Part shown: positions 20,131 to 41,783 of the stretch, piece after piece
Numbering within the stretch: position 1 is the stretch's first letter
How the letters are laid out: every line of letters starts with the position of its first letter
NCBI GenBank assembly: GCA_024663395.1
Contig: JANFAH010000002.1
Location: 5,952,001-6,016,000 of the forward strand
Direction: 5' to 3'
DNA from: Pisolithus tinctorius
Taxonomy: Eukaryota > Basidiomycota > Agaricomycetes > Boletales > Pisolithaceae
Length of the DNA: 64,000 nt
Notes under the pieces: generated by a model
Told to the model about the DNA's origin: nothing
Database searches by the model: none
Seen by the model: only the letters and a program-made list of their open reading frames with translations
Translations under genes and position numbers: made by a program

Positions 20131-22802
20131 TCATGGCTTGATGATATAGTCTACAAAGGCACACCTCTCCCAAGGGAGAACTTCGCCAAGATTCGTGACG
20201 CCTTGCACATAAAATCTGAGACACCTTTTCCCTTCTAACCCCTGAGGAAGGCACTGCGGTTCAACGTAAAATCGGTTGGCACGCCCGTCCAGTCCAGTGG
20301 TGCCGATGAACGTGGCAGGGAGTAAATCCGACATAGCAGTTTCACTTGCGTAAGTGGTGACGTAGACGTTGAAGTACAGGAAGGATATGGATTGGGGTAG
20401 GGCATCGTCTAAGACCCAGGCAGGGCGTGGGTCTTCAGGATGATTTTTGTACGGGTCAATCGGAGGCATTGGCGGGAGAGAGAGTGCCGTGTCCCAAGTT
20501 AAGACGCCGACCAAGTTAGCTAAGGAATCCGTAGCAGAGTCGGGAGCGAAACGGGCCCAGAAAACACGAGGCGAGCCCACTGATATCGGTGGAGTTGGTG
20601 GAGAGGGGTATACTGCGAGTTTGCCGAGGGATAATGCGAAGTTGCATGGCAAAGAAGGGTCTTTGGCTACGAAGCCAACTACGAGACCAACCGCGATCGA
20701 TATCGGACCCGAAGTTGACGTCGAGGTAAATGTTAATTCCTGCTTGGACCAGCCGTGCAGAAGATCAGTCAGAATAGCTTGCCCGACTTCCAATTTGGTC
20801 TCCCCTTCCTCTCCTAAGGAAAGAGGTTTGACCATGACAGTAAGATCAAGGTCGACGGTCTCGTCCGACCCGGGTTTGTATGCAATGCAGGTTTCGTATG
20901 ACCTCCCAGCGCTAATCGTCAAAGACTGAACGGGTAACCAGATGCATCGGAAGAACGCATCCTCCGCATCACTGCCTCCACATCTGACTGAAATCTTCAA
21001 GGTATTACCGCCGTTCCATCCGTCCGTCATATCAAATGCGGTCGATGCGGTGGGTAAATCTTCGTTCCTCCCGTCGCCCTCCCATTTCAAAGCAGGTGTG
21101 GGCCATGCAAGATTACCAATGGAACACTGCTTGTCAATGTCTGTCCAGCCCTTCTCGGTCTGCAAGACATTCACGCCGTCGACGAACCAGGACCAACCAA
21201 CTCCGGGAGAAAAACAGGTATAAAACGGAGACTTTGCTGGATCTGGGGATGGCGTATTTACGAAGAACGCGCTCAGAGGCTTGAATGCGCCCTCATTGTA
21301 GGGAGGGACGTCAGAGAGCTTCGGAGGGTCGGGAACCGGTACAATTTCGCCGGGGTGAGAAGGGCCGATCCAGAGTTTACGCTCGTAATCCCACCACTGT
21401 TCCCAATTCCAACCGGGTTTGTCCTGTTCGGATTCCCAGGTCCATGCTGGTCCAAAAAGTGCGACGCTAAGTCCGAGGGATTGCGGATCAATGTGGGTAA
21501 TGGCTCTGTAGCTGTTAAATCCCCCGCCGCCGTATTGACTACGGCCCCAGACATCAACTCCCGTCAAAACCGATTGAAGGGTTTTCACTCTCGTTTGGAC
21601 ATTTCGAGTTATGGGTGAATTGCCCAACAGGACTGGATCGATGGACAGAAAGTAACCCGCTCCAAGTGCCGGATAATTAGGAGGCCACTAGGCATATACT
21701 CTGTCAACTCGCTCCATCTTGGATGCAAACATTCCTTACAAAGTAGTTGGTGAAGAGTGCATCCGAAGCCAGGAAAAATGGCAAGTTGCGATGATTGAGT
21801 CTGTTTTGGTACCTCAACTCTCCGCTAATGATTACGCTATCATACCTTGCATTGCAATCAATGCGTGAGATGATCGAATCTAAGACCAGGGTACCTACCA
21901 CACCACATCTGCGTGGGTTCCGACTTTGGAGCGAAGCTCTGCTCTCAGTAGGGTGATCCATGCCGTCAAAGCGCGAGCTTGTTCGGCACCGCCAGGGAGA
22001 CTAGACTCGAAGTTGAGCAGATACCCGTCGAAACCGCGTTGAAAGGCTAGCTCGGCTAGGCAAGACGCATAGTGCGCAGACAGGCGGATGCTTCCGCTCG
22101 CTGCATCTGAGCCGGTGGAGAGGCTGGGAACGTTTCCTAGCAAAAGTTTGAGGCCGTCTGTATCTGATTCTGAGTGTTCTAATATCCTGATCTCGAGTTG
22201 AACGGAGGCGGTCATATAGTAATATTGACAGGCTTGCTCACAGAACGCCCAGCATTTTCACGCCTTGCTTATGAGCAGCGTTAATCCACCCCGAAGGGGG
22301 AACGGTAATGCGATGATGTGAAAAGCTTCCACGACCAGTGCATATCAACTGGCCAGACGGAGGATATGGCAAGGGGGTGGTACGCACTAGACGAATGTAT
22401 CACACAGGGACCAGAAATTGAAGGTATAGCATGTCCCCGACGGTGATTCGGTGTAGCCTCCCTGGATACCCGCATTTGATGAACCGAGTCACCATGCGTC
22501 AATTGCGAGCAAGTGACATAAACGATGCGACGAGTCACCAACTTTATAATCGTGGCATACCTGCAGGGAAGATGGGGGAAGGTCTTAGCAACTGATGTAG
22601 TAACGTAGAATCACTGTCTCCTTACCAGTAACTTCCCTCTGTTATCTGATTGTCCTTTGACTTGGGGACGAGGCTGATACTGGAAGACGCCGGCCAACTT
22701 GGAGTGAGGCTGCGTGAACCAAGCATCGAGCTCTGCCAAAGAATCAAAGAAGGGTGCCTCGTCGCCGACCAGTTTCGAATGGCCTACGCCACGCAGGGGC
22801 AT
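20131..22802 (-). CDS. cytosolic endo-beta-N-acetylglucosaminidase, GH85 (ENGase)
   Basis: Cleaves the chitobiose core of N-glycans, releasing free oligosaccharides in the cytosol. ATG 22802-22800 gives MPLRGVGHSKLVGDEAPFFD, then SLAELDAWFTQPHSKLAGVF. Downstream exons read VCHDYK, GGYTESPSGTCYTFNFWSLC and SHHRITVPPSGWINAAHKQG. The catalytic strand RGFDGYLLNFESSLPGG carries the Asn and Glu of the GH85 substrate-assisted mechanism. Then come GELRYQNRLNHRNLPFFLAS, YFLSIDPVLLGNSPITRNVQ and FVGVDVWGR-like TGVDVWGRSQYGGGGFNSYR. The long last exon (20131-21627 plus) holds PAWTWESEQDKPGWNWEQWW, then a galactose-binding-like beta domain (FYTCFSPGVGWSWFVDG) to the stop at 20131. The catalytic residues are intact. 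Six or so short introns are needed, and those inspected are GT-AG. Confidence 0.92.
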
Positions 22803-22916: not shown

Positions 22917-25900
22917 ATGTCGGCCTTTGATTTTGCAACGTTTTTCGTCGGTTGCACGAGTCCCGGACAGACTGGCCAGGACATGTCTGAACTACCAGTC
23001 GTTAGGAACGACAACGGAACACCCACAGAGCACACGTCTCAAGACACCAGCTACAGTGGCGACAAGACCCAGCCCACAGAAGACATATTGAATGCTTTGA
23101 ATGCTCTCAACCCGAAGGCGATCTTGGAAGCCACTCAAAACGGGCACGAGCCCGCTCTTGCACAAGATGATAATGCTGGCCAAGATACCGATACCCCAAT
23201 GGACCCACCGTCTGAGTGGCACGTGCTGCGCGAGAAATTGCGTGAACATCCCCATGACCCGGAAGGCTGGAACCACCTCGTCGACATCGCTGAAAATAGT
23301 GGTGATCTTGAACAAGTCAAGCAGACCTACGAAGCCCTGTTCGAGACGTATCCCAACACGGTATGACATTCCGTTTGCTCCCAAGCACTTAGTTTGACAG
23401 CGGAATGTCAAGTCGTCTGCCCAAATTGCCTATCTCAACCACTTCTTGAGTCCAGGACTGTTCCAGTACGCCGAGGAATTGTTCAAGCGCTTCTTGAGAA
23501 CTTCACCTTCAGTTGACCTCTGGAAGTTTTATATAACATACGTCAGGTCAGTCAGGCAAAACAGATCGCAGCCCCGCACAACATTTTTGATCCAACGCCG
23601 AATCTACAGACGCGTAAATACGTCGCCAACCAGCCGTGAAGCCGTCAGTCGGGCTTATGAATTTGCACTCAATCGCATCGGACAAGACAAAGACAGTGGA
23701 GAGATTTGGCATGACTACATCCAATTCCTCAAAGCCGGCGAGGTATAAACTTATTTATCCAGCTCTGTCGGCGTCAACTGATGTGGTCATTAGACGAATA
23801 CTACTTGGGAAGAACAACAAAAGATGGATGCTCTGCGTAAGGTCTATCATAGGGCAGTTCAGATTCCGCTCGAGAATGTGGAGAAGTTGTGGTCTGAGCT
23901 TGAGGCTTTCGAGAACGGGTTGAACAAGATTACGGTTTGTGTCCCTTTTGCGTTACCCTTTCGAGTGTTTAATTTTCTTCGCAGGCTAAAAAATTTATGT
24001 CTGATTTGTCTCCCGTCTCATATGCAAGCCCGAACAGTGCTTCGTACAATTACAGAGACATCTCGGTCCGTTGTTCCCACCTCCACCTCCGTCTTCTTCG
24101 ACCCGGCCATCAATCTATCTACCGCCTGCACCAACATTCAACGCAGCTGAAAGAGCACTTGTGGGAGCATGGAAAACTTACCTCAAGTGGGAAGAGAACA
24201 ACCCGCTCGAATTTGAAGATAAAGATAAAGCCACGTTGGTATCGCGTGTCCAGCTTGTTTATCGCAAGGCAGGTCATCCGCATGCGATTTTATAGCGAGA
24301 TTTGGTGAGTCTTCTTGCCTCGGTCTTTGCCTGAATTAATTACCTTCTGCAAGGTACATGGCGTTTGTGTGGACAAACAGCATTGGTAAGCAAGAAGAAG
24401 CGCTAAACATCTTGAAGGCCGGCATCGAAGCAAATCCGACTAGTTTCCTCCTTAATTTTGCATATGCTGAGCTGCAAGAGGGGCGCAAGGAATACGCCGA
24501 AGTTAACGCTACTTTCGACAAACTTATCGACCGTCTGCATGTGCAACTCGAGGAACTTGAGGCCCGGGTGAATTCGGCGTCTTCGTCATTCTCGTCTGAT
24601 ATCACTGGCCGTTCTGTGGCTACGAGTGTCCCTAGCTCAATAACTCCCGGTACCGACAGAACCAGGGCACTGTGTCGAACAACTCGTCTTTTGCCACCCA
24701 GAATGCTGATGAGAAACCTCCCAAGTCCAAAGAGTTGCAAGAAGCGCCGGTCTGAATACGGTCTTGTGTGGATTATGTACATTCGATACGCGCGCCGAGC
24801 TCACGATCTCAAGACTTTCCGAGCGGTATTTGCAAAAGCCAGGAAAGACCGATGGACACCCTGGGAGGTTTATGAAGCTGCAGGTGTGTGAGAAGGCAAC
24901 GACAAAGCTCTCAAGTCAACTTGACGAATTTCCGACAGCACTAATGGAATACCATTGCAATAAAGGACTGGTGGTCTCGGAGTAGCGTGTCGTATCTTTG
25001 AAAAAGGTCTGGAAAGTTTCGGTGACGAGATTGAGTTCGTTTTGAGATATCTTGGTTTCTTGATATCGGTCAATGACGACAACAGTGAGCCTGGGTGTAT
25101 TGATGTCCCTCCTTGTCCACCAACTTACGAGATTTTCATCAGACGCACGAGCGCTTTTCGAGCGTGTCATTAGCGCGTTTAGCCCCGATCGGGCACGACC
25201 ATTGTGGGAAAGGTGGGCACGTTACGAGTATCAGTTTGGTGATCTCGAGGCTGCGCAGAAACTTGAGAAACGTATTGCCGAAGTCTACCCAACTGGTGGG
25301 AACAACTTTTTTTTGGGAAGGCGAGCCTTTTTTTTGACATCATTCGTTTGACAGACCCTCCTATCAAACGGTTTGCTCAACGACACACGTACCTGGGTAC
25401 CGATGCCATTGCAGCGAGGGACCTCGGGTTTGCCATGGCAGCCCGCCAACCTGCGGCGGGAGGTAACGCTGCCACATCGGCGGGAGGGCTTGAGAGACGT
25501 ACTGAGTCGCTTCAATCCATGATGCCATTGTCGCATGTGCCTCAAGCCCAAACATCCAAGAGACACTCGACGCCAGACCTCAAGCGCAGAGAGGATTCAG
25601 TGAAGCCTGACTTTGGACCACCATCCAAACGTCAGAGGCCCTTGACACCCCCGCGTGAGCGTGATCGAGACAGGTCGGCTGGGCCGCCCCACCGGAGACG
25701 TCTTGCAAGCCCAGCTGGATGGGAGAAGGAGCGAGACCGAGAACTTGGACACCTCAAGAGGGACCGAGACGAAGACAAGCCATCTCCGTTGCCTACAGTC
25801 TTGTCGTGGTTCGTTGGGCAGTTACCTAATCCGGCCGCTTTGATGGTCAGTACTTGACGACGTGTGAACCGTCGCCTTTTTTGTGTTACAATGGGAAGAA

Positions 25901-26703: not shown

Positions 26704-29700
26704 ATGGTCGACAAGATTATTCCTATTCGTATTAGGCGGGGAGACAAATCCACCCGAACGCCGCGCGATAACGGTCCGAATGTGCTATCTGGTCGTAATG
26801 TCTCCGACGCCTTTCGGATAGGTTTACCTGTGGTACAAGAAGTTGCGGGCGTAATCCCGATCGCCGGTGCGCCGCTGAAGGCTGCGATAGGCGGGTTACT
26901 TGCTGTTCTTCAACTTATAGATGTGATGTTGATCCATTTTCATGTATTGTTCTTGTTTCTAAACGTCATCATAGAGATGCACCCAGAACAGGAAGGCCTT
27001 AGATGACCTCACTTACCGATTGTACACGCTCAGTTGCCTTATAGCCAATGCCCCAACTGCTCAGACCCCTGATGAAGAAGATAGACGGAAGAGGCTGATC
27101 AAGTAAGTCGCGCTACGAAATGCGTCGGATATTCGATAGTGAAGTATTACTTGATCAGGATGCTAGAGGACACTACAAGCACGTTGGGTGAGATGCGAAG
27201 CGTCATGCGTGGGTCCCCAGCTCTCGCGCAAGAGATAGCTGGATGCTCCAGCAAAATCGATGAATATATTGGGGAAACTACGGTGAAACTGCATCTTCAT
27301 CATGACACTCCTGTCTTATTCGTCGTCTTGTATAGCTCGTTTACCTCATGCAACAACAGACGGACATCACCACGATTATGCATACCCAGCAGACGCAATT
27401 TCAATCTATCATGCAAGTTCTGAAGACACTGTATTCGAGACAATTACCTACAGACATCACCTCTGCTACTGTGACAATGGTCGATGCGACGGGACGGGAA
27501 CATCGCATGCTGCTTGATCAGTGCAGTTCTTTTGATGTTGGTTGCTGGAACTCAAATGTGGATTCACAAACCTCACCATATTTTTTAGCGACTGGTTACT
27601 TTTTTGCCTGGCATACTGCACCAATGTCGGCCAGATGAAGCTGAGATCCAACAGTGGTATATTGACCAGGGACAATATGATATTGTGATTGACGATGGCA
27701 CTAACGTAACCCAACTGACAAGGGAGAGTGATGTTTGGTCAACTATTCAGCCAGGGACCAAAATGGTCATGAGGATTATTACCGCAGAAGTGGTCAGGAG
27801 CTTTTCTGCAAGATGTCGGTGCCGCTGTGGGAAATGGAATGATATCAAGGTTGACGGTGCCACACTCGTGGATGCATTGGTGCATGGTTGCACCATCACC
27901 TGGTAAACTAATTTCCAGCGCCCGTCCGGCAGGGCTCACAATAATCCGGCAGTCGCTACTGCTGGCGACGCTTTCAGATAACGGGCACCGAAGCGGAAGA
28001 GGTTAGAAGCCGGCAGCGAGGGAGATCACAGCCCAGCGGTGATAGACCGTCGGAGGTAGCAGAGAGCCTCATTCGCAATTTTGTGGTGAAGCAAGCGGTG
28101 TGTTGGACCCAAATACGTGGTTGAGTTCCGACACTGCTGACGTTGTGGGCTTGGAAAGCTACAGCTGGTATATTGTGATTCCTGATTTGCACGCCGTCTG
28201 CTGACTACCGCATCACTGTTCCATGCCTTCAGGAGGTGGGTGGCCATGCATTTTGGTGTGTTTGCTGTTTACTGACCCTTGTCTGCTATCCCCCCATGCA
28301 CAGGACGTGCGTGTTCTCACGTTTCGAGCGTCTAGGAATTTGCTGACCCATGGCTGCTATTCCCCATCCACAGATTGTACGTGTTCTCACCTTTCGAGCG
28401 TCTGGCTGTTTTGTGAACCTTGCCCTGCTATTCCCCATCCACAGCTTGTGCGCGTTCTCTCCTTTGGAGCGTTCGAGTGTTTGCTGACTCTTGGCTGCTA
28501 TTCCCCAGCCACAGCCTGTGCGCGTTCTCACCTTTCTAGCATCTGGGTGTTTGTTGACCCTTGGCTACTATTTTCCATCCACAGCGAGTGCGTGTTCTCA
28601 CCTCTCGGGCGTCTGTGCATTTGCTGACCCTTGGCTACTATTTTCCATCCACAGCCAGTGCGTGTACTCACCTCTCGGGCGTCTGTGCATTTGCTGACCC
28701 TTAGCTACTATTCCTGATCCACAGCCAGTGCGTGTTCTCACCTTTCGAGAGTCGGAGTGTTTGCTGACCCTTGCTTGCTATCTCCCATCCACAGAAAGTG
28801 CGTATTCTCAGCTTTCGAGCGTCTGAATGTTTGCTGACCCCTGGCTGCTATTTCCTATCCACAGCAAGTGCGTGCTCTCACCTTTCCAATGGTTGGCCGT
28901 TTGCTGACCCTTGGTTGCTATTCCCCATTCACAGTTTGTGCGTGTTTCTCACCTTTGGAGCGTCTGAGTGTTTGTTGACCCTTGCCTGCTATTTCCCTTC
29001 CGCAGAATGTGCGTTCTCGCCTTTGGAGCGTCTGGCCATTTGCTGAACCTTGGCTGCTATTCCGCATCCACAGCCAGTGCGTGTTCTCACCTTCCCAGTG
29101 TCTGGCCGTTGGCTGACCCTTGGCTGCTATCCCCCATTCACAGTGGGTGCGTGTTCTTACCTATTGAGCGTCTGGGCGTTTGCTGACCCTTGCCTGCTAT
29201 TTCCCATCCGCAGGATGTGTGTGTTCTCGTCTTTGGAGCGTCTGGCCATTTGCTGAACCTTGGCTGCTATTCCGCATCCACAGCCAGTGCGTGTTCTCAC
29301 CTTCCCAGTGTCTGGCCGTTTGCTGACCCTTGGCTGCTGTTCCCCATCCACAGATTGTGCGTGTTCTCACCTTCCCAGTGTCTGGGTGTTTGCTGACCCT
29401 CGGCTGCTATTCCCCATTCACAGTGGGTGCGTGTTCTTACCTATTGAGCGTCTGGGCGTTTGCTGACCCTTGGCTGTTTCCCATCCGCAGAATGTGTGTG
29501 TTCTCGCCTTTGGAGCGTCTGGCCATTTGCTGAACCTTGGCTGCTATTCTGCATCCACAGGAAGTGCGTGTTCTCGCCTTTCGAGCGTCTGGCCATTTGC
29601 TGACTATTGGCTACGATTCTCCATCTACAGCCAGTGCGTGTTCTCACCTTTCGAGTGTCTGGGCGCTTGCTGACCCTTGCCTTCTGTTCTCCATCCACAG

Positions 29701-32700
29701 GAAGTGCGTGTTCCAACCTGTCAAGTGTCTAGGCGTTTGCTGATCTTTGCCCTGCTATTCCCCATCCACAGCGAGTCCGTGTTCTCACCGTTGGAGCGTC
29801 TGGGTGTTTGCTGACCCTTGGCTGCTATTCCCCATGCACAGGATGTGCGTGTTCTAACCTTTGGAGCCTCTGGGCGTTTTCTAACCCTCGGCTGCTATTC
29901 CCCATGCACAGGAAGTGCGTATTCTCACCTTTGGGGTGTCTAGGTGTTTGCTGACCGTTGGCTGCTATTCCCAATCCACAGGAAGTGCGTGTTCTCACCT
30001 TTGGAGCATTTGGCCATTTGCTGAACCTTGGCTGCTATTCCGCATCCATAGGAAGTGAGTGTTCTCGTCTTTCGAGCATCTGGCCATTTGCTTACCCTTG
30101 GCTGCTATTCCCCACGCACAGCCCGTGCGTGTTCTCACTTTTCGAGCGTCTAGACATTTTCTGACTATTGGCTATGATTCCCCATCCACAGCGAGTGCGT
30201 GTTCTCACCTTCGAGTGTCTGGGTGTTTGTGACCGTTGCCTGCTGTTTCCCATCCACAGGAAGTGCGTGTTCCCACCTGTCGAGCGTCCGGGTGTTTGCT
30301 GATCTTTGCCCTGCTATTCCACATTCACAGCTCGTGCGTGTTCTCACCTTTGGAGTGTCTGCGCGTTTGCTGACCGTTGCTTGCTGTTCCCCATTCACAG
30401 GGTGTGCGTTTTCTCACCCTTTGAGTGTCTGGGTGTTTGCTGATCCTTGGCTGGTGCATTCTGGGGCGTTTGCCATTTTCTGACCCTTGGCTACTATTCC
30501 CCATCCACAGTTTGTGCGTGTTCTCACTTTTCGAGTTTCTGGGTATTTGCTGACCCTTGGCTGCTATTCCCCATCCACAGTTTGTGCGTGTTCTCACTTT
30601 TCGAGTGTCTGGGCGTTTGCTGATCATTGGCTGCTATTCCCCATCCACAGGCTGTGCGTGTTCTTACATTTCGCACGTCTGGGCGTTTGCTGACTTGGCC
30701 GCTATTCCCCACTCGCAGCCAGTGCGTGTCCTCACCTTTGGAGCGTCTGGGCTTTTGCTGACCCTAGGCTGCTATTCTCCATCCACAGCGAGTGCGTGTT
30801 CTAACTTTCGAGTGTCTGGGTGTTTGCTGACCCTTTCTGCTGTTTCCCATCCACAGATTGTGCGTGTTCTCACCTTTCGAGCGTCTGGCTGTTTTGTCAA
30901 TCTTGCCCTACTATTCCCCATTTACAGCCAGTGCGTGTTCTCACGTTTTGAGCGTCTGGCTGTTTTGTGAACTTTGCCCAGCTGTTCCCCCATCCACAGA
31001 TTGTGCGTGTTCTCAGCTTTCGGGCATCTATGCGTTTTCTGACTCTTTACCGCTATTACACATCCCCAGCGAGTGCGTGTTCTCACCTTTGGAGTGTCTG
31101 ACCGTTCGCTGAACCTCGCCCTGCCATTCAACATACACAGTATGTGCGTGTTCTCTCCTTTGGATCATCTGGCCGTTTGCTGAACTTTGCCTTGTTACTT
31201 GCCATCCACAGCCAGTGCGTGTTCTCACCTTTCGAGCATCTGGGTGTTTGCTGAAAATTGCTCCGTTATTCGCCATCATAGGAAGTGCGTGTTCTCACCT
31301 TGGGAGTGTCTCCTCGCTTGTTGACCGTTGCCTTGGTATTGCTCATCGATAGGAAGTGTGTGTTCTCACCTTTGGAGCGTCTGGCCGTTTTCTAAATGTT
31401 GCCCTGCCATTCGCTATCTCCAGGAAGTGCGTGCTCTCACCTTTGGAGCGTTTGGTTATCTTCTCATCCTCGCCCTGCTATTCCTCATCCCAAGGACGTA
31501 CGTGTTGTCACCTTTGGGTCATCAGGCTGTTTTCTCACCCTTTCCCTACGATTCTACCTCCGTAGGATGTGCGTGTTCTCACCTTCGGCACGTCTGGCCC
31601 TTTGTTGACCCTTGCCCTCCGATTCTTCATCCATAGGCAGTGCGTGTTCTCACCTTCGGAGCTTTTGGTAGATTTCTGAACCTTTCCTGGCTATTCCCCA
31701 TCCACAGGCAGTGCGTATTCTCACTTTTTTTGGAGCGTCTTGCTGTTTGTCGAGAGTTTTCCCGCTATTTCTCATCTATAGGAAGTACGTGTTCCCACCT
31801 TAGAAGCATCTGGCCGGTTACTGAATCTTCCCTGCTATTCACCATCCACAGGTTGTGCGTGTTATTGCCTTGGGAGCATCTGGCCGTTTGCTGAACCTTG
31901 CTCTGCCGTCCACCATCCACAGGTTGTGCGTGTTCTCACTTTGGGAGCATCTGGCTGTTTGCTGAACCTTGCTCTGTCATTCCTCATCTACAGGAGGTGC
32001 GTGTTCTCATCTTTGGATTGCCTGGTTGTCTTCTCAACCTTGCCCTGCTATTTCCCATCTCCAGGAAGTGCGTGTTATTATCTTTGGAGCATTTGGCTGT
32101 TTGCTGAACCTTGCCCTACTATTTCCTATCTACAGGAGGTGTGCATTCTCACTTTTGGAAGGTCTGGCTGTTTGCTGAACCTTGCCCTACTATTCCCCAT
32201 CCACAGTATGTGCGTAGTCTCACTTTTGGAGTGCCTGGCCACTTTCTGAACCTTGCCCTACTGTTCCTCTCCCACAGGAGGTGCGTGTTCTCACCTTTGG
32301 ACTGCCTGGCTGTTTTCTCAACCTTGCTCTCCCATTCCCTATTCACAGGAGGTGCGTGTTCTCACCTTTGGGCTGCCTGGTTGTTTTCTCAATCTTGCCC
32401 TGTTATTTCCCATCTCCAGGAAGTGCGTGTTCTCACCTTTGGAAGGTCTGGCTGTTTGCTGAACCTTGCTCTGCCATTCCCCGTCTACAGTATGTGCGTG
32501 TTCTCGCCTTTGGAGCGTTTGGCTACTTGCTGAACCTTGCCCTACTATTCCCATCCACAGGAGGTGCGTGTTTTTCGCCTTTAGATTGCCTGATTGGTCT
32601 CTCGACCTTGCCTTGCTGTTCCCCATTTCCAGGAAGTGCGTGTTCTCACCTTTGGAGCATCTAGTGGTTTGCTGAACCTTGCCCTACTATTTTCCATCCA

Positions 32701-33148
32701 CAGGAGGTGTGTGTTCTCATCTTGGAAGGTCTGGTAGTTTGCTGAACTTTTCCCTTCAATTCACCCATTCTAGGATGTGCGTGTTTTCAACTCTACAGCA
32801 TCTAGCGGTTTGCTGAACCCCACCCTGCTATTCCCATCTACAGGAAGTAGGTATTGTCACCTTCGGAGCATTTGGTCATCTGTTGAACCTTGCGCTGTTA
32901 TGCCCCATCCACAGGAAGTGCATGTTGTCCCCTTTTGGGCCTTTGTTAATTTGTTTGCTGACCATTTTCCTGCTTCTACATAGGCGCAGGATGTGTGTTT
33001 TCCTACCTCCTGACCTACTGTGCATTTCTGAACCTGTTGCTACTTTCTCCCCGTAGCTCGTATGTGCTCTTCTCTTTTGCGTTTTCCTTCAATGATCCCA
33101 TTCATCCTTCAGGCAACGGATGCAAGATGTCTGCATGAGTGTCTTTGA
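26704..33148 (+). CDS. NLR-style helical/ubiquitin-like-domain protein with a predicted tail of 70 single-codon exons
   Basis: Six ordinary exons, 26704-26922, 26975-27102, 27159-27282, 27336-27536, 27589-27902 and 27953-28097, join in frame with GT-AG introns (377 codons). Residues about 15-140 form a helical domain (IGLPVVQEVAGVIPIAGAPL, AAIGGLLAVLQLIDRCTQNR, LDDLTYRLYTLSCLIA) like those heading fungal NACHT/NLR proteins. Residues about 160-190 are Gln-rich and possibly coiled. Residues about 195-298 form a fungal ubiquitin-like domain (TMVDATGREHRMLLDQCSSF, QQWYIDQGQYDIVIDDGTNV). A Cys ribbon follows: C300, C302, C304, C325, C329 and C332 (CRCRCG, CRYC). From 28098 a tandem intron-like array holds 70 three-base slots, then a terminal exon at 33113-33148 ends in TGA. 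Total 1377 nt, 458 residues, 77 exons. If the 27903-27952 intron is retained, translation stops at 27904-27906 without the CRYC motif or tail. Function is inferred only: intracellular signalling or immunity-like. The tail model needs transcripts. The six-exon part is firm. Confidence 0.6.
27953..28097 (+). other. entry exon into the array
   Basis: This 145-nt exon completes the Cys codon split across the 27903-27952 intron and reads CRYCWRRFQITGTEAEEVR, then a polar linker, then ESLIRNFVVKQA. It ends GCG in phase 0 at 28097, followed at once by GTGTGT, the first of the array's introns. The CRYC motif pairs with CRCRCG in the preceding exon to make a zinc-ribbon-like set. That is the main reason for believing that the gene continues past the TAA at 27904-27906. 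Confidence 0.75.
28098..33112 (+). repeat. tandem array of 71 intron-like ~67-nt units separated by 70 exact 3-nt slots
   Basis: Each unit is GTGCGT-like donor, TTTGGAGCGTCTGG-like body, CTGAC or CTGAA about 30 nt before the end, pyrimidine-rich stretch, CAG/TAG. Period is mostly 70 to about 31,000, then mostly 71. Slots (first base, codon): 28165 CTG, 28233 GAG, 28304 GAC, 28374 ATT, 28445 CTT, 28515 CCT, 28585 CGA, 28655 CCA, 28725 CCA, 28795 AAA, 28865 CAA, 28935 TTT, 29006 AAT, 29074 CCA, 29144 TGG, 29214 GAT, 29284 CCA, 29354 ATT, 29424 TGG, 29491 AAT, 29561 GAA, 29631 CCA, 29701 GAA, 29772 CGA, 29842 GAT, 29912 GAA, 29982 GAA, 30052 GAA, 30122 CCC, 30192 CGA, 30260 GAA, 30331 CTC, 30401 GGT, 30511 TTT, 30581 TTT, 30651 GCT, 30719 CCA, 30789 CGA, 30857 ATT, 30928 CCA, 31000 ATT, 31070 CGA, 31141 TAT, 31212 CCA, 31282 GAA, 31353 GAA, 31424 GAA, 31495 GAC, 31566 GAT, 31637 GCA, 31708 GCA, 31782 GAA, 31852 GTT, 31923 GTT, 31994 GAG, 32065 GAA, 32136 GAG, 32207 TAT, 32278 GAG, 32349 GAG, 32420 GAA, 32491 TAT, 32561 GAG, 32633 GAA, 32704 GAG, 32774 GAT, 32844 GAA, 32915 GAA, 32990 GAT, 33057 CTC. 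The slot at 32990 may instead be a 9-nt exon from 32984. Confidence 0.95.
33113..33148 (+). other. terminal exon after the array
   Basis: After the last acceptor (CCTTCAG, 33112) the phase-0 frame reads ATDARCLHECL and stops at TGA 33146-33148. The two introns before it (33060-33112, GTATGT...CAG, and 32993-33056, GTGTGT...TAG) are diverged from the repeat consensus and look like ordinary small fungal introns. The array therefore merges into normal gene structure at both ends. Confidence 0.55.
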
Positions 33149-34985: not shown

Positions 34986-36810
34986 TGTCACACACCAAAG
35001 GTGTTGTGGACATGGTTACAGCTGACTCTGCCTAACTTGTCAACAAGTTGTGTGCAATGCCCATGCCATGCAGATGAAGACTAAAGGCCTCATGCATAGA
35101 AAGACCGCTGGACATGAGCAGTCATCCTTTGCACAAGAATGAGTCATCAGTGCTAAAGAGAAAAGAGGAAGTGAGTTAAGTGCACATTAAAAGTTTTTAG
35201 TGCCCATGTGCAGCATTCCAGTTTTTGGTGTATCTCCACCATTTCCAAAGATGTTGACTCTGTTCTCACACTCACTTAAAGTGCTCAGCCACATGATTCT
35301 GCCTTCCAAATTTGGAGAGGATCCTCACACCCTATGCATTTCTACAGCACTCCATCCATCAGATGCTCATTTCACTCAGTCCACCAATCATGGCTGCCTC
35401 TTCATCAATCATCTTGCTTGTCTCATTTGCCAGAGACAGTGGCTATGTATATCTGCCAGGCATTCCCACCAGCTTCCATCCTGAAGCCCCCTGGTTCATC
35501 CCATCATTGTCAGCCCCATCCCATCCCATCCCATGCAGCTTGGTCAGCATGTTCTCCTTGTCAGTATGACTTCCAGAAGGATGTTCATTGGTTGCCTCAG
35601 GTCTGTCACACAGTCTCCCCTCTTGATGAAGCATATGGATCATTCCTCCCTGCTCCCTGCACCATCTTTATTCCAATCTCATACATCATTCTTCCCACAT
35701 TGTGACAGCTGCAGCATAATCTACTGTTCTCCAGCCTCCCTGATCACATCCATGACAAGTATGACATGCATCTTGCCTTCTTACTGTGAGATCCAGCAGA
35801 AGATGTCCCCCCTTCTCCTCCTCCTCCATCAGAGCCCCATCCATGAAGTTTTTGTTAACTTTGCTGAGAGGATGAAAGGGTGGGAGATGTGATCACTTAT
35901 GCTCCTGTTGCCCCACAGACCCCAATGTCCTAGCCCCTTTGACACCTGACTCATGCCCTTCAATTCTGGAATTAATACTTCCCTATCTGGAAACACTGTC
36001 CATCTGTCATGCCATCTTTGGATCTAGAGATGTCTCTGCTGAGATCTGACTTGCATCACCACCCCCTAATGTGATATCAGTGTGCTTACTCAGTTTCTGA
36101 CTCCATTTGACTCATTCTGTGATATTTTGACTGTTCTTGACTCATTCATTGCCAATACTTACCAATCTTCTTTGCTTGCTTACTTTTCATTTCTTGCTTA
36201 CTCATCATGATTACTCAGTCCTTACTCATTACTTACCAAGTGTTTGTGCCTTGTTTGTCACAAGCTGTGCTCCCCCCACAGTATATAAACCCCCATGTAC
36301 TTAGCTACACCCCAAAGTGAATCAAAAGCAATCCAGAAGTCAGTTCAGCTCTTTCAGTGCATATCTCATCATCAACAGTTGAGGCTCATTTGGAAGAGTC
36401 TATCTGTCACCATCCATCCTCCTTGGTAGTTGAGGCTCCATCAAGGGTCTATCTACCTCTATTCATCATCAGCAGTATCATCAGTGCTTAGTCAGCAACC
36501 TTTTGCTTAGTCATTCTTCCACTCCTGCATAACTTGTCATTGACTTGTGCTGGGAGCATGTTTTTATTCCAGAATACTTTTGGCTGAACACCTTCACTCT
36601 GTTCAGCATCCCCCATTCAATCATCACTCATTCATCTGCTCTTGCATAACTTGTCATTGACTTGTGCTAGGAGCACCTGCCATTGAAATTCCCCCACACT
36701 AGATCTTTCTGCACTCCGGGTTCCATGGAGGTACACCACCACTTGCTCTATATTTGTCTTTGGTGTTGGATTTGTTTGGTTTTCACCAGCTTTCCACACT
36801 TTGACTCACA
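34986..36810 (+). mobile_element. solo LTR, copy A of the 1.85-kb family
   Basis: Begins TGTCACACACCAAAGG and ends TTTGACTCACA (TG...CA), 1825 bp. It is flanked by GCAG on both sides (34982-34985 and 36811-36814), a 4-bp target duplication. A TATA box (cagtatataaaccccc, about 36281) marks a U3/R boundary near position 1300. It interrupts the LINE between RNase H and the C-terminal region. No internal retroelement domains are present. Confidence 0.85.
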
Positions 36811-37601
36811 GCAGATATTCTGTTGTATTGGGGGGAGTTTCTCCAGATCTTGGCCCATAGGGTCTTTAGTTTTGTGTTGTGGGATTGTTTGGGGGTGGAT
36901 ATGCTGAATGGTAGTTGTTTCCTTAGTAGTGGGGGTAAGTCTTCTGGGGGGCTGGCCAATTCTGCTCTTGTTGCTGCTATCTTTGCCTCCCTATCTGCTA
37001 GCTTGTTACCTTCCACTTCCATGTGACCTGCTATCCATCATATTGTTACATTTTTTCTTGATAGTCATTGTTCATTGAGGGCTTTGATGATCATAGACCT
37101 AGTGTGCATCAGTAGATAGTGGCCTGGCCTTGCTGATGGCTGCTCACTCGATCTTATTACTGCTTGGTTATCAACTAGTATTGTAGCTGGGTATGTGACT
37201 TCCATCCTGGCATCTAGTAGGTGTGTAGCCATTAATAGAGCCACTGCCTTGGCCTCAAATACTGTGTGTTGTGACACATTCCCTAGATGGTATCTCAGCA
37301 TAGTGATGTGTTGGTAGTCTGAGTAGAGGACTGTGGCAGCACCTACTCTGTCTGCCATGCTTGATCTGTCTGTGAAGATTAACATGCATTCCTTGAGTTT
37401 GGCAAAATCTATGACTGCCTCTTTCTTGTTTGGGGCTATGGTGATGGAGTGTGATGGGGGGGTGTGAGGAGGGGTTGGACATGGGTGGATTGTTTCAGTG
37501 TGTTGCAGGTCGATTTTTAGGTTGTGCATGAGTTGGTGTATGGATGATCTATGTTGTTTGATGTTTGTTTTGGTGATTTTGGTGACAAGTGCATGGAGCA
37601 G
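36811..37601 (-). pseudogene. LINE RNase H domain
   Basis: Reads LKECMLIFTDRSSMADRVGA (first Asp of RNase H within FTDRS), TVFEAKAVALLMATHLLDAR (conserved Glu), ATILVDNQAVIRSSEQPS (conserved Asp in VDNQ) and, after a break, MEVEGNKLADREAKIAATRA, which carries the last motif GNKLADREA. The sequence between the third motif and VEGN is disrupted. It is flanked by solo LTR insertions on both sides. Confidence 0.8.
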
Positions 37602-39450
37602 TGTGAGTCAAAGTGTGGAAAGCTGGTGAAAACCAAACAAATCCAACACCAAAGACAAAAATAGAGCAAGTGGTGGTTTGCCTCTGCAGATCCTGGAGTG
37701 CAGAAAAAACCTAAAGTGGGGGAAATTTTGATGGCAGGTGCTCCTAGCACAAGTCAATGATGAGTTACACAAGAGCAGATGAACAAGTGATGACTGGATG
37801 GGGGATGCTGAATAGAGTGAAGGTATTCAGCCAAAAGTACTCTGGCATGATGATCTTTAGGACATGCTCCTGGTGCAAGTTGATGTTGAGTTACACAGGA
37901 GTGGATGGATGACTAAGCAGGTGTGCTGACTAAGTGTGGATAAGACTGCAGATGATGGATGGTGGTAGATAGACCCTTCTGAATGAGCCTCAACTACCAA
38001 GTATATGAATGATGACAGATAGACTCTTCTGAATGAGCCTCAACTGTCAATGACAAGTTATGCACTGAACTGACTGCTGAGTGACTTCTGGTTCAATTGG
38101 GGTGCAGCTAAGTACATGGGGGTTTACATACTGTGGGGGGAGCACAGCTTGTGACAAACAAGGCACAAACACTTGGTAAGTAATGAGTAAGGACTGAGTA
38201 ATCATGATGAGTAAGCAAGAAATGAAAAGTAAGCAAGCAAAGAAGACTGGTAAGTATTGGCAATGAATGAGTCAAGGATAGTCAAAATATCACAGAATGA
38301 GTCAAATGGAGCCAGAAACTGAGTAAGCACACTGATATCACATTAGGGGGTGGTGATGCAAGTCAGATCTCGGCAGAGACATCTCTAGATCCAAAGATGG
38401 CATGACAGATGGATGGTGTTTCCAGATAGGGAAGTATTAATTCCAGAATTGAAGGGCATGAGTCAGGTGTCAAAGGGGGCTAGGGCATTGGGGATCCGTG
38501 GGGCAATGGGAGCATAAGCAATTGTGTCTCCCACCCTTTCATCCTCTCAGTGAAGTTAACAAAAGCTTCATGAACAGGGCTCTGAAGGAGGAGGAGGAGA
38601 AGGGGGGATGTCTTCTGCTGGATCTTGCAGTAAGAAGGCAAGATGCATGTCATACTCATCATGAATGCAATCAGGGAGGCTGGAGAACAGTAGATTATGC
38701 TGCAGCTGTTGTAATGTGGGAAGAATGATGGGTGAGATTGGAATAAAGACAGTGCAGGGAGCAGGGAGGAATGATCCATATGCTTCATCAACTGGGGAGA
38801 CCAAAACAACCACATAAGACCTCTCTAACTGAGTGACAGACCTGAGGCAACCAAAGAATGTCCCTCTGGAAGTCATACTGACAAGGAGAACACACTGACC
38901 AAGCTGCATGGGATGAGATGGGGCTGACAATGATGGGATGAACCAGGGGGCTTCAGGATGGAAGCTGGTGGGAATGCCTGGCAGATATTCGTAGCCACTG
39001 TCTCTGGCAAATGAGACAAGTGAGATGATTGATGAAGAGGCAGCCATGATTGATGGACTTAGTGAAATGAGTGTCTGATGGATGGAGTGCTGTAGAAATG
39101 TGTAGGGTGTGAGGATCCTCTCCAAATTTGGAAGGCAGAATCATGTGGCTGAGCACTTTAAGTGAGTGTGAGAACAGAGTTGATATCTTTGGAAATGGTG
39201 GAGATACAATGAAAACTGGAATGCCATACATGGGTGCTAAAAACCTTTAATGTGTGCTTAACTCACTTCCTCTTTTCTCTTTAGCACTGAGGACTCGTTC
39301 TTGTGCAAAGGATGACTGCTCACATCTGGCAGTCTTTCTATGCATGAGGCCTTTTGTCTTCATCTGCATGCATGGGCATTGTGCACAACTTGTCAATGAG
39401 TTAGGCAGAGTCAGCTGTAACCATGTCCACAACACCTTTGGTGTGTGACA
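37602..39450 (-). mobile_element. solo LTR, copy B of the 1.85-kb family (inverted)
   Basis: Same element as copies A, C and D in opposite orientation, 1849 bp, TGTGAGTCAAAG...GGTGTGTGACA on the plus strand. The flanks are GCAG (37598-37601) and GTGG (39451-39454), a 4-bp duplication that differs by two transitions. Both can derive from GCGG by CpG decay on opposite strands. Carries a 185-residue open frame (39125-38568, minus). Confidence 0.85.
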
Positions 39451-39454
39451 GTGG

Positions 39455-41783
39455 GTGTTTACCAGGTAGTGAGGAGAGTCAGAGTGAGGCATTGTATAGA
39501 GTTTTCTGTATGAGCACTGGTGCTGGTGGGATTTGAGTGTGTGCTAACAGGGCATTGGTGGGGGTGGTTTTCATGGCACCCATGGCTGCTATGGCTGCTA
39601 TTCTTTGTATTGTTAGTAAGTGCCTTGCTATGCCTTTTGAACCTCTAGTTTTGGTCATGTGGTTGCTGGAGTAGGCAGGTTGGAGCCACACTGGGGCCAT
39701 GTACATTATCTTGGGAATGACTACTGTCTGGTACAGTTGTCACATTAACTTTGTGGGTATGCCCCATGACATCATGGATAACCTTCTTAAGAGGAGCGCT
39801 TGCTTGGTTCCTTTTGCTAGTGCTTGCACTGCATGTGTTTTCCATCTTAATTCTTGGTTGAGAATGACACCTAGGAATTTCTGAGTAGGTACCATGATGA
39901 TTTCAGTGCCTCTTAGTGTCAATGGAGGTTTTGGTTTGGATCTGTTGAGCATGAAGTCCATCAGTGCAAATTTGCTTGTTTTGAACTTTGAGTTGTGTTT
40001 GCAAGACCAATCATATCCTCTGTCTTCCCTTTCCATCATGTTCAGTAGAGTGGTGTGGGTTTCATTGAATGTTTTGCCTATGGCAATGAGTGCCATGTCA
40101 TCTATGAATGCGAGTGTTAGTTCCTTTTTACCTTTGGCTATGTCTACTAAGTCTGAGCTGTAAATAACATATAATATCATCAGCAGAGGATCTCCTTGAC
40201 CAATGCCATTCTTAATGGTGAACCATTCAGATTTGTAGTCATCAAAACAAAGTTTTGTTTTCCTGTTCATTAGTAGTCATTCAGTGAAGTGTACTATTTC
40301 AATGGGGAGACATCTTTTTCTCATGTTGTGAAGCAATTGATCCATGACTGCATTTGGGAATGCTCCTTTGATGTCTAGGAATAGCACAGATACTACTTGT
40401 TTTTGGCACCGTGCATGTTGTACTGTGGTTTTGAGTAGTAGTAGCGAGTCTTCAGTTGATCTGCCTGGCCTGCTGCCAAAGTGTGTGGCCAGGAGGAGTT
40501 GATGTTCTTCTAGTATGTATGAGGTGCATGCTGCTAAGGTTGCCAAAAGTAACTTTGCCATGGTGTTGAGCAGCACAATTGGTCTGTAAGCTTTTGGGGT
40601 TGTGTAGTCTGGTTTGCCTTCGAAGGATGACCATGGTGGACTCTCTCCAGGGTTTGTAGTAGGTGTGAAACATAAACACTGCATTAAATAGGTGCAATAA
40701 GTATGCTGAAAGTGTTGGAGATTTTTGGAATACAATATTGGCTATACCATCCAGCCCTGGCACCTTGTAAGGGCTTAGGCTTTTGATAGTGCATGCTAAT
40801 TGGTCCTTCATGATTGGGGTCCAATGTTCTGCCAGGTCTGGGTACTCATAGTCTTGTGGTACTGATGAGCATGCTGGTGGTGGTGGGAAGAGTGCTTTTG
40901 CAAACAGTTGACTTTTGTCCTCATTAGAGCTGGCTGTGGTTGTGGTGCTGTCTTTGTTGGTCTTCTTGAGGGTGGGTATCCTGGTTTTGCTACCATCGCC
41001 ATATGGTCTGGAGATATAACTGTTAGCTTTCCAGAGATCTTCACTGCCCACCTCCTCGAGCCAGTCCCTCCAGTGGGTTTTCTTTGCTTCCTGTATGGCT
41101 TTGTCATACTCTTTTGCCTTTTCCTTGCATAACCTGTGGCTGTTGTGATTGTGGATTGCATGGAATGTGAATGCAGCTTTACTTAGCATTTTCAGGTCCC
41201 TGTGCAGGGCTGTGAACTCCTTCGTCCACCATTGCTTCATATGCAGGTGGGGGTGGGATCTTGGTACCTCTTTCTCCAGCACTGTTCATAGTGCTGTCTC
41301 AATTCCTTGTGTGTTCCTTTGGAACTCCTGCTCATTGGCTATCTCTGTTGGGGGACCAATTTTGGAAAGTTCAGTTTTTAGTGCCTTGTTGAACTTCTTC
41401 CAGTCTACCTTGCAGAAGTTGTAGGTAGGTGGAGACAAGGATGGCATTAGTGTAGTTTCAAAGTGTGTTAACACCAGGAGGTGGTCAGTGTTGGGCCCTC
41501 AGTCTTCTGGACTCATGTCACAGCTGATAAGTCCTTCCATCACTGATTCCATGCAGAAGACATTTCTGGGTGTGTCCAGTTACTTGTGGATGTCAACTGG
41601 AGTGTGAGTATTCCTTTAGGTAGCACTTGTATCATACAATAGTTTGCTGTTAACTTGAGCAGTCTTTGTGCTGACATGAGGGCTGTGGTTGTGAACAGGT
41701 GGTGGTTATGGTCTTCATCCCATAGTGGGTGGTGTCTGTTGAAGTCCCCTAACCACAGCATTTGGTCATCTTCTGTTGGGTGG
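39455..41783 (-). pseudogene. LINE endonuclease C-terminus and reverse transcriptase
   Basis: At 41761-41540, WLGDFNRHHPLWDEDHNHHL is the GDFN motif of the apurinic-type endonuclease. Then HMKQWWTKEFTALHRDLKML, the RT fingers (PGLDGIANIVFQKSPTLSAY), AYRPIVLLNTMAKLLLATLA and HFGSRPGRSTEDSLLLL. LFLDIKGAFPNAVMDQLLHN carries catalytic Asp 1. GIGQGDPLLMILYVIYSSDL follows, and LAFIDDMALIAIG holds the catalytic D-D box. The thumb runs from TLRGTEIIMVPTQKFLGVIL through GIPTKLM to YMAPVWLQPAYS. Frameshifts near 40735, 40270 and elsewhere break the frame, so this copy cannot be autonomous. Confidence 0.85.

Follow-up and report, generated by a model that had tools for sequence, protein, structure and literature searches.

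Schistosome micro-exon genes (MEGs) are described as comprising 10-20 exons, mostly of 15 bp, separated by introns of 0.1-5 kb, and their small symmetrical exons permit in-frame alternative splicing (PMC10526429, PMC4350168). In the cited account of aphids, one megacycle gene has 118 exons encoding 2,092 aa over about 100 kb, or about 53 nt per exon, and the internal exons of the related bicycle genes are mostly phase 2 (PMC9168663). Isolated microexons of 3 nt and 1 nt are reported to be spliced in Drosophila hth and in plant APC11 and VPS55 (PMC7392893, PMC8831610). Among fungi, the reports cited describe microexons in P. chrysosporium P450 genes, in Trichoderma Xlr2 and in Dactylellina lipS, which has two 3-nt exons (PMC1184071, PMC5639578, PMC11121469), and introner-like elements are introns that have multiplied and occur in several genes (PMC4457414). 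The Pisolithus tinctorius locus described here resembles the aphid genes in its very many microexons per gene, but its exons are 3 nt long and in phase 0. As in the fungal reports, small exons lie between fungal introns, although those genes have few of them and no tandem array; the microexons of hth, APC11 and VPS55 are isolated, whereas here codon-sized exons occur in runs. We consider it very probable that this array is the 3' part of a gene for a ULD_2-domain protein, and that its 70 predicted single-codon exons are spliced into a 70-residue tail.

The stretch of DNA that was analysed, referred to as the window, is 64,000 nucleotides long and is part of contig C2 (6,547,381 bases) in a 92.5-Mb assembly. 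The gene model and its array have the following features, in which a slot is the three bases between two consecutive introns:

26704..26922, + strand: predicted exon 1, with the ATG at 26704 (gene model and paralog alignment; protein P0001 begins with the same residues)
26987..27102, + strand: predicted exon 2 (gene model; paralogs show the same splice sites)
27159..27282, + strand: predicted exon 3 (gene model and paralog alignment; residues present in P0001)
27336..27536, + strand: predicted exon 4; the ULD_2 domain (PF22893) starts at residue 196, about 27462
27589..27902, + strand: predicted exon 5, with the remaining ULD_2 domain (to about 27783) and the beginning of a Cys-rich motif
27903..27952, + strand: predicted intron, GTAAAC...CGGCAG, holding the TAA at 27904-27906 where annotated P0001 ends
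27953..28097, + strand: predicted exon 6 (RYCWRRFQITG...NFVVKQA), ending on a codon boundary, GCG
28098..33112, + strand: array of 71 introns and 70 single-codon slots, with introns of 53-107 nt, mostly 67-68, all phase 0
28165..28167, + strand: first slot, CTG (Leu), from the gene model
30404..30510, + strand: the single long intron of the array, 107 nt
33057..33059, + strand: last slot, CTC (Leu), from the gene model
33113..33148, + strand: predicted last exon, ATDARCLHECL and the stop TGA, from the gene model

The six ordinary exons (26,704-28,097) would encode 373 residues, and the ULD_2 domain within them scores 34.5 bits against a curated family cut-off of 24.5. All 76 of the 76 introns in the gene model are GT-AG, the slots are in phase 0 as set by the frame of the upstream exon, and the predicted product has 454 residues. 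The array is bounded by the GCG that ends at 28,097 and the GCA that starts at 33,113, and its predicted slot peptide, LEDILPRPPKQFNPWDPIWNEPERDEEEPRELGFFAPRIPIRYPEEEDDAAEVVEEEYEEEYEEEDEEDL, would form a 70-residue tail that is acidic and probably disordered. Upstream in the window lie a Suppressor-of-forked (Suf) protein gene (about 23398-24888, + strand), two pieces of which match PF05843, and a reading frame at 20131-21684 on the - strand with a Pfam match to Glycosyl hydrolase family 85 (68 bits); three of the six flanking reading frames had no Pfam match.

The preliminary description of this DNA had set transcripts stopping at 27906 against its own reading of the array as coding. Such an end is matched in annotation only, by four of 26 homologues (P0001, P0016, P0019 and P0020), while 21 continue across the junction with a C..C motif and one continues otherwise. 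Since 21 of the 26 read across, the annotated end of P0001 is probably wrong. Among other members of the ULD_2 family, P0006, P0010, P0017, P0023 and P0024 have, by eye, differing tails after an RNF..K motif; that of P0006 looks Zn2Cys6-like and that of P0010 gives a sub-threshold C2H2 match. It is as if the RNF..K junction were a place of exchange for C-terminal exons.

As the initial parse of the array presupposed 3-nt slots, spacing was assessed with splice-site score matrices that allowed any gap of 0-40 nt, although the matrices themselves derive from the 3-nt-slot parse. Between 27,000 and 34,000 in the window there are 64 strong acceptors, of which 61 have a strong donor within 40 nt, in every case at 3 nt (61/61), and three have none. 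Across nine array regions of the genome, the same matrices place 353 of 358 acceptor-donor pairs at 3 nt. One of the five remaining pairs lies outside its array. The other four are instances of a single homologous end unit, which yields an AGA slot of 3 nt when CCAG is read as the acceptor. By eye, the C43 array ends in an exception, its last unit, CCACCAG-AA-GTGCAT, leaving a 2-nt gap. Intron length varies, with 118 of 325 units, summed over arrays, off the modal length of their own array. The gene model and the gap test thus bear out the initial count of 71 GT...AG units with three bases in all 70 gaps, and, apart from the C43 gap and the two longer small exons of the short-array paralogs described below, the contrast drawn there between variable units and a constant slot holds across the arrays. 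Several consecutive in-frame exons far below normal size, the layout of a microexon gene, are present here as 70 phase-0 3-nt slots.

The slots also carry a coding signal. In seven arrays (all except C33 and C114, and minus two window slots, one C43 slot and one C21 slot that fall below the score threshold) there are no stop codons in 332 slots, whereas the base composition of these slots, taken column by column, predicts 9.2. The probability of zero stops is 8.8e-5 if slots are independent, an assumption that their relatedness by duplication violates. Read in the other two phases, the joined slots contain 11 and 40 stops. To characterise the introns, an alignment was made of the 307 units (of 325) whose introns measure 60-76 nt; GT and AG are invariant there by construction of the parse, in which the branch-site A played no role. 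The branch-site A is nonetheless the most conserved interior column (305/307, or 0.993, versus an interior mean of 0.783), and 272 of the 307 introns have CTNA at its usual distance, while 35 lack it there. Doubled intervals of 138-141 nt account for 5 of the 325, as would happen if decay had removed a splice site.

These signals bear on the view that the array is a minisatellite resembling introns by chance, with the gene ending at the TAA at 27,906 and the array untranslated. Its tandem period of 70-71 suits that view, as do the four homologues annotated to end at 27,906 and the searches with the full-length window product and with the window and C43 tails, which found no array transcript. 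It does not account for stop-free slots or for a branch-site A that is the most conserved interior column, and plain unit duplication would not leave slots far more variable than the adjoining introns. Moreover, 21 of the 26 homologues cross the TAA-containing intron, and two proteins join the slots of short-array paralogs, as set out below. A neutral minisatellite would diverge uniformly and accept indels anywhere; here the branch-site A stands out (0.993 against 0.783), lengths vary in 118 of 325 units while the gap stays at 3, and slots are more diverse than introns. The occurrence of separate arrays elsewhere in the genome also speaks against chance, and we regard this explanation as very improbable.

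Three paralogs of the same family (C83_131, C83_54 and C3_370) have short arrays that lead into ordinary exons, and the first slot in all three is Leu (CTA or CTG), as in the window. Two intron-free proteins correspond to them: P0011 (516 aa; longest contig 1,861 nt) and P0013 (426 aa). P0011 reads ...AKQM-L-S-E-P-YVFVDPTAPPQF-P-KVQESPD... where the C83_131 DNA reads ...AKQV-L-S-E-P-(36-nt exon)-P-KVQESPD..., joining all six small exons in frame, five of them single codons (L, S, E, P, P). P0013 reads ...IRV-L-E-NEK-P-K-RIHVFIFQAA... where C83_54 and C3_370 read ...IRV-L-E-NEK-P-K-RMHVFIFQAA..., joining five of five small exons in frame, four of them single codons (L, E, P, K). The small exons that are not 3 nt long, of 36 nt and 9 nt, are both multiples of three. 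With 88% identity to C83_131 in the two best-matching stretches, P0011 probably originates from a different strain or species. In the genome, the C83_131 gene covers about 2,450 bp, more than the 1,861-nt P0011 contig, and both proteins probably derive from spliced RNA. If they do represent transcripts, tiny exons are joined in the mature RNA of these short-array paralogs, as in microexon genes; searches with the window product and tail found no such record for the window gene. The array intron model gives two of the seven introns in the C83_131 tail scores of 56 and 58 bits, although both were among the 52 rows from which that model was built. Taken together, the absence of stops, the branch-site A, the constant phase 0 and the two intron-free proteins support the initial claim of real introns and single-codon exons.

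For the long arrays, products were sought for the window, C43 and C3_155 loci. Searches with the full-length window gene product, in which scoring covered the 7,996 candidates that had the most words in common with it, and with the window and C43 tails together matched no long-array transcript or protein; nor did the C3_155 product, for which no homologue with an unsplit peptide was found either. Since no long-array transcript was found for these three loci, splicing of the 70-slot gene is something we infer, and the window mRNA may include all 70 slots. Alternatively, the array may be transcribed and spliced with its slots serving mainly as recursive-splicing stepping points or being mostly skipped, such that the mRNA carries few or varying slot codons. 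The unit donors and acceptors are much alike and any skipping would be frame-neutral, an argument by inference only, yet every small exon is kept in P0011 (6/6) and P0013 (5/5) and the slots are stop-free. We consider this outcome unlikely.

Further arrays were found elsewhere in the genome:

C43: array of 38 slots
C114: array in which a motif scan finds the same 36 slots as it finds in C43
C21: array of 56 slots
C2b (C2 at 1.535 Mb): array of 55 slots
C3_155 (C3 at 155 kb): array of 65 slots
C3_299 (C3 at 299 kb): array of 22 slots
C3_788 (C3 at 788 kb): array of 30 slots
C33: array of 24 slots

The predicted start of the C3_155 gene is, by eye, MTRFTQ and that of the C2b gene MGDDSYLA; in C3_788 and C33 the predicted start is itself a 3-nt ATG exon; some array genes thus seem to consist almost entirely of single-codon exons. 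A lone 3-nt ATG slot with the same acceptor and donor motifs also occurs on the near-identical contigs of L029 and L030 (about 4777 and about 4969, respectively, in reverse complement coordinates), and is possibly a start-codon exon or possibly due to chance. C33 and C3_788 are near-identical, C33 being without exactly six units (six codons), and their 24 common slots are identical: none of 72 slot nucleotides differ, and 5 of 1,504 intron sites differ in the 22 of 23 shared introns compared. This pair is too similar for a comparison of selection on slots and introns. Strongly diverged copies of the window locus itself lie on C43 and C114: their upstream flank is 99-100% identical to the window, but their gene is 84.5% identical (window 26780-28112 versus L011/L012 and L013/L014), with 70 slots in the window against 38 in C43. 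The C114 flanks are 99.8-99.9% identical to those of C43. The copies may be alleles or recent duplicates. On the 3' side of the array, the compared stretches have just two inverted repeat pieces in common. At about 35068-40000 the window contains repeated, partly inverted pieces that are shared with the flanks of C21, C3_788, C33 and C43 and are likely transposon remnants.

Between units of one array whose introns are 95-100% alike, the slots differ at 0.3-0.6 per site. The window, C43 and C21 arrays show no correlation of slot identity with intron identity (r 0.03-0.05, no more than permutation noise), and C2b, C3_155 and C3_788 show a weak one (r 0.08-0.17); tandem duplication of intron and codon together was accordingly rejected as the sole source of slots. 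Three of six arrays have slightly more adjacent identical slots than expected (permutation P 0.03-0.06), and the other three show no excess. Within a slot the three bases are mutually linked (z at least 2.6 in 13 of 15 comparisons), while linkage between intron columns is weak on average (mean z 0.2-2.8; 6.2 for the nearest columns of C43). Codons therefore act much as cassettes that stay intact while the introns around them are shuffled. Some linkage of slot bases to the intron ends closest to them (mean z reaching 2.3 in C3_155 and 3.6 in C2b) argues against full decoupling.

That introns 95-100% alike flank different codons would also be expected if an older, uninterrupted coding sequence had received a copy of one intron behind each of its codons, and the C3_155 and C3_788 slot peptides do, by eye, resemble ordinary protein sequence. 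Such an introner-type origin leaves insertion at every third base without explanation, and no homologue with the C3_155 peptide unsplit was found. Of 119 close intron copies (<=3 mismatches), the 100 listed all lie in arrays or at array ends, in a search that would miss diverged copies. We hold this origin to be doubtful, and a dispersed introner unlikely on the same matches.

Each unit bears all the marks of a short intron (GT, branch-site A, AG) and is followed by three bases, which continue the frame of the predicted upstream exons. In our preferred reading, the 70-slot RNA would be spliced as those of the short-array paralogs probably are, intron by intron through intron definition, because two spliceosomes could hardly fit on a 3-nt exon at the same time. 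As a unit is one intron plus one codon, its gain, loss or skipping would keep the frame, and the tail could change codon by codon. Recombination inside similar introns may move codons as cassettes, which would explain the loose ties between codons and introns. More broadly, and with less confidence, the arrays may represent a new gene architecture: a coding satellite whose repeat is an intron plus a codon, in which codons are reassorted by intron recombination and whole units gained or lost, so that the tail is rewritten one amino acid at a time with the frame kept. It would be used in several genes of one mushroom, including small genes made almost wholly of single codons, one kind with a 3-nt start-codon exon, and the difference between 70 and 38 codons would point to fast change, perhaps in self/non-self recognition. 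This wider proposal is a serious possibility that we stop short of calling probable.

If transcripts confirm the gene model, splicing must cope with dozens of adjacent 3-nt exons, far beyond any run of codon-sized exons found. The array would then offer a testbed for intron definition with near-vanishing exons and for the order of intron removal, and no unit of exon shuffling could be smaller than its repeat. Such genes are likely to escape gene finders and read mappers; the public record of the window gene stops before the array.

Literature searches, as far as the sources covered it, found no description of a run of single-codon exons, which agrees with the earlier remark that no gene with dozens of consecutive 3-nt exons is known to have been described. 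The units differ from spliceosomal twin introns (stwintrons), in which an internal intron splits the splicing signal of an outer one, as each has its own donor, branch-site A and acceptor. Introner-like elements, as described, place near-identical introns in many unrelated genes, whereas the close copies here all lie in or at the end of arrays among the 100 matches listed of 119. The schistosome MEGs, as the cited accounts present them, share with this locus runs of many tiny exons, most of a length divisible by three, that are hard to annotate. In place of mostly 15-bp exons and long introns, the window gene has 70 3-nt exons with an intron of about 67 nt (range 53-107 nt) repeated between them, so it does not fit the MEG family in exon and intron size, and the likeness described here is one of layout.
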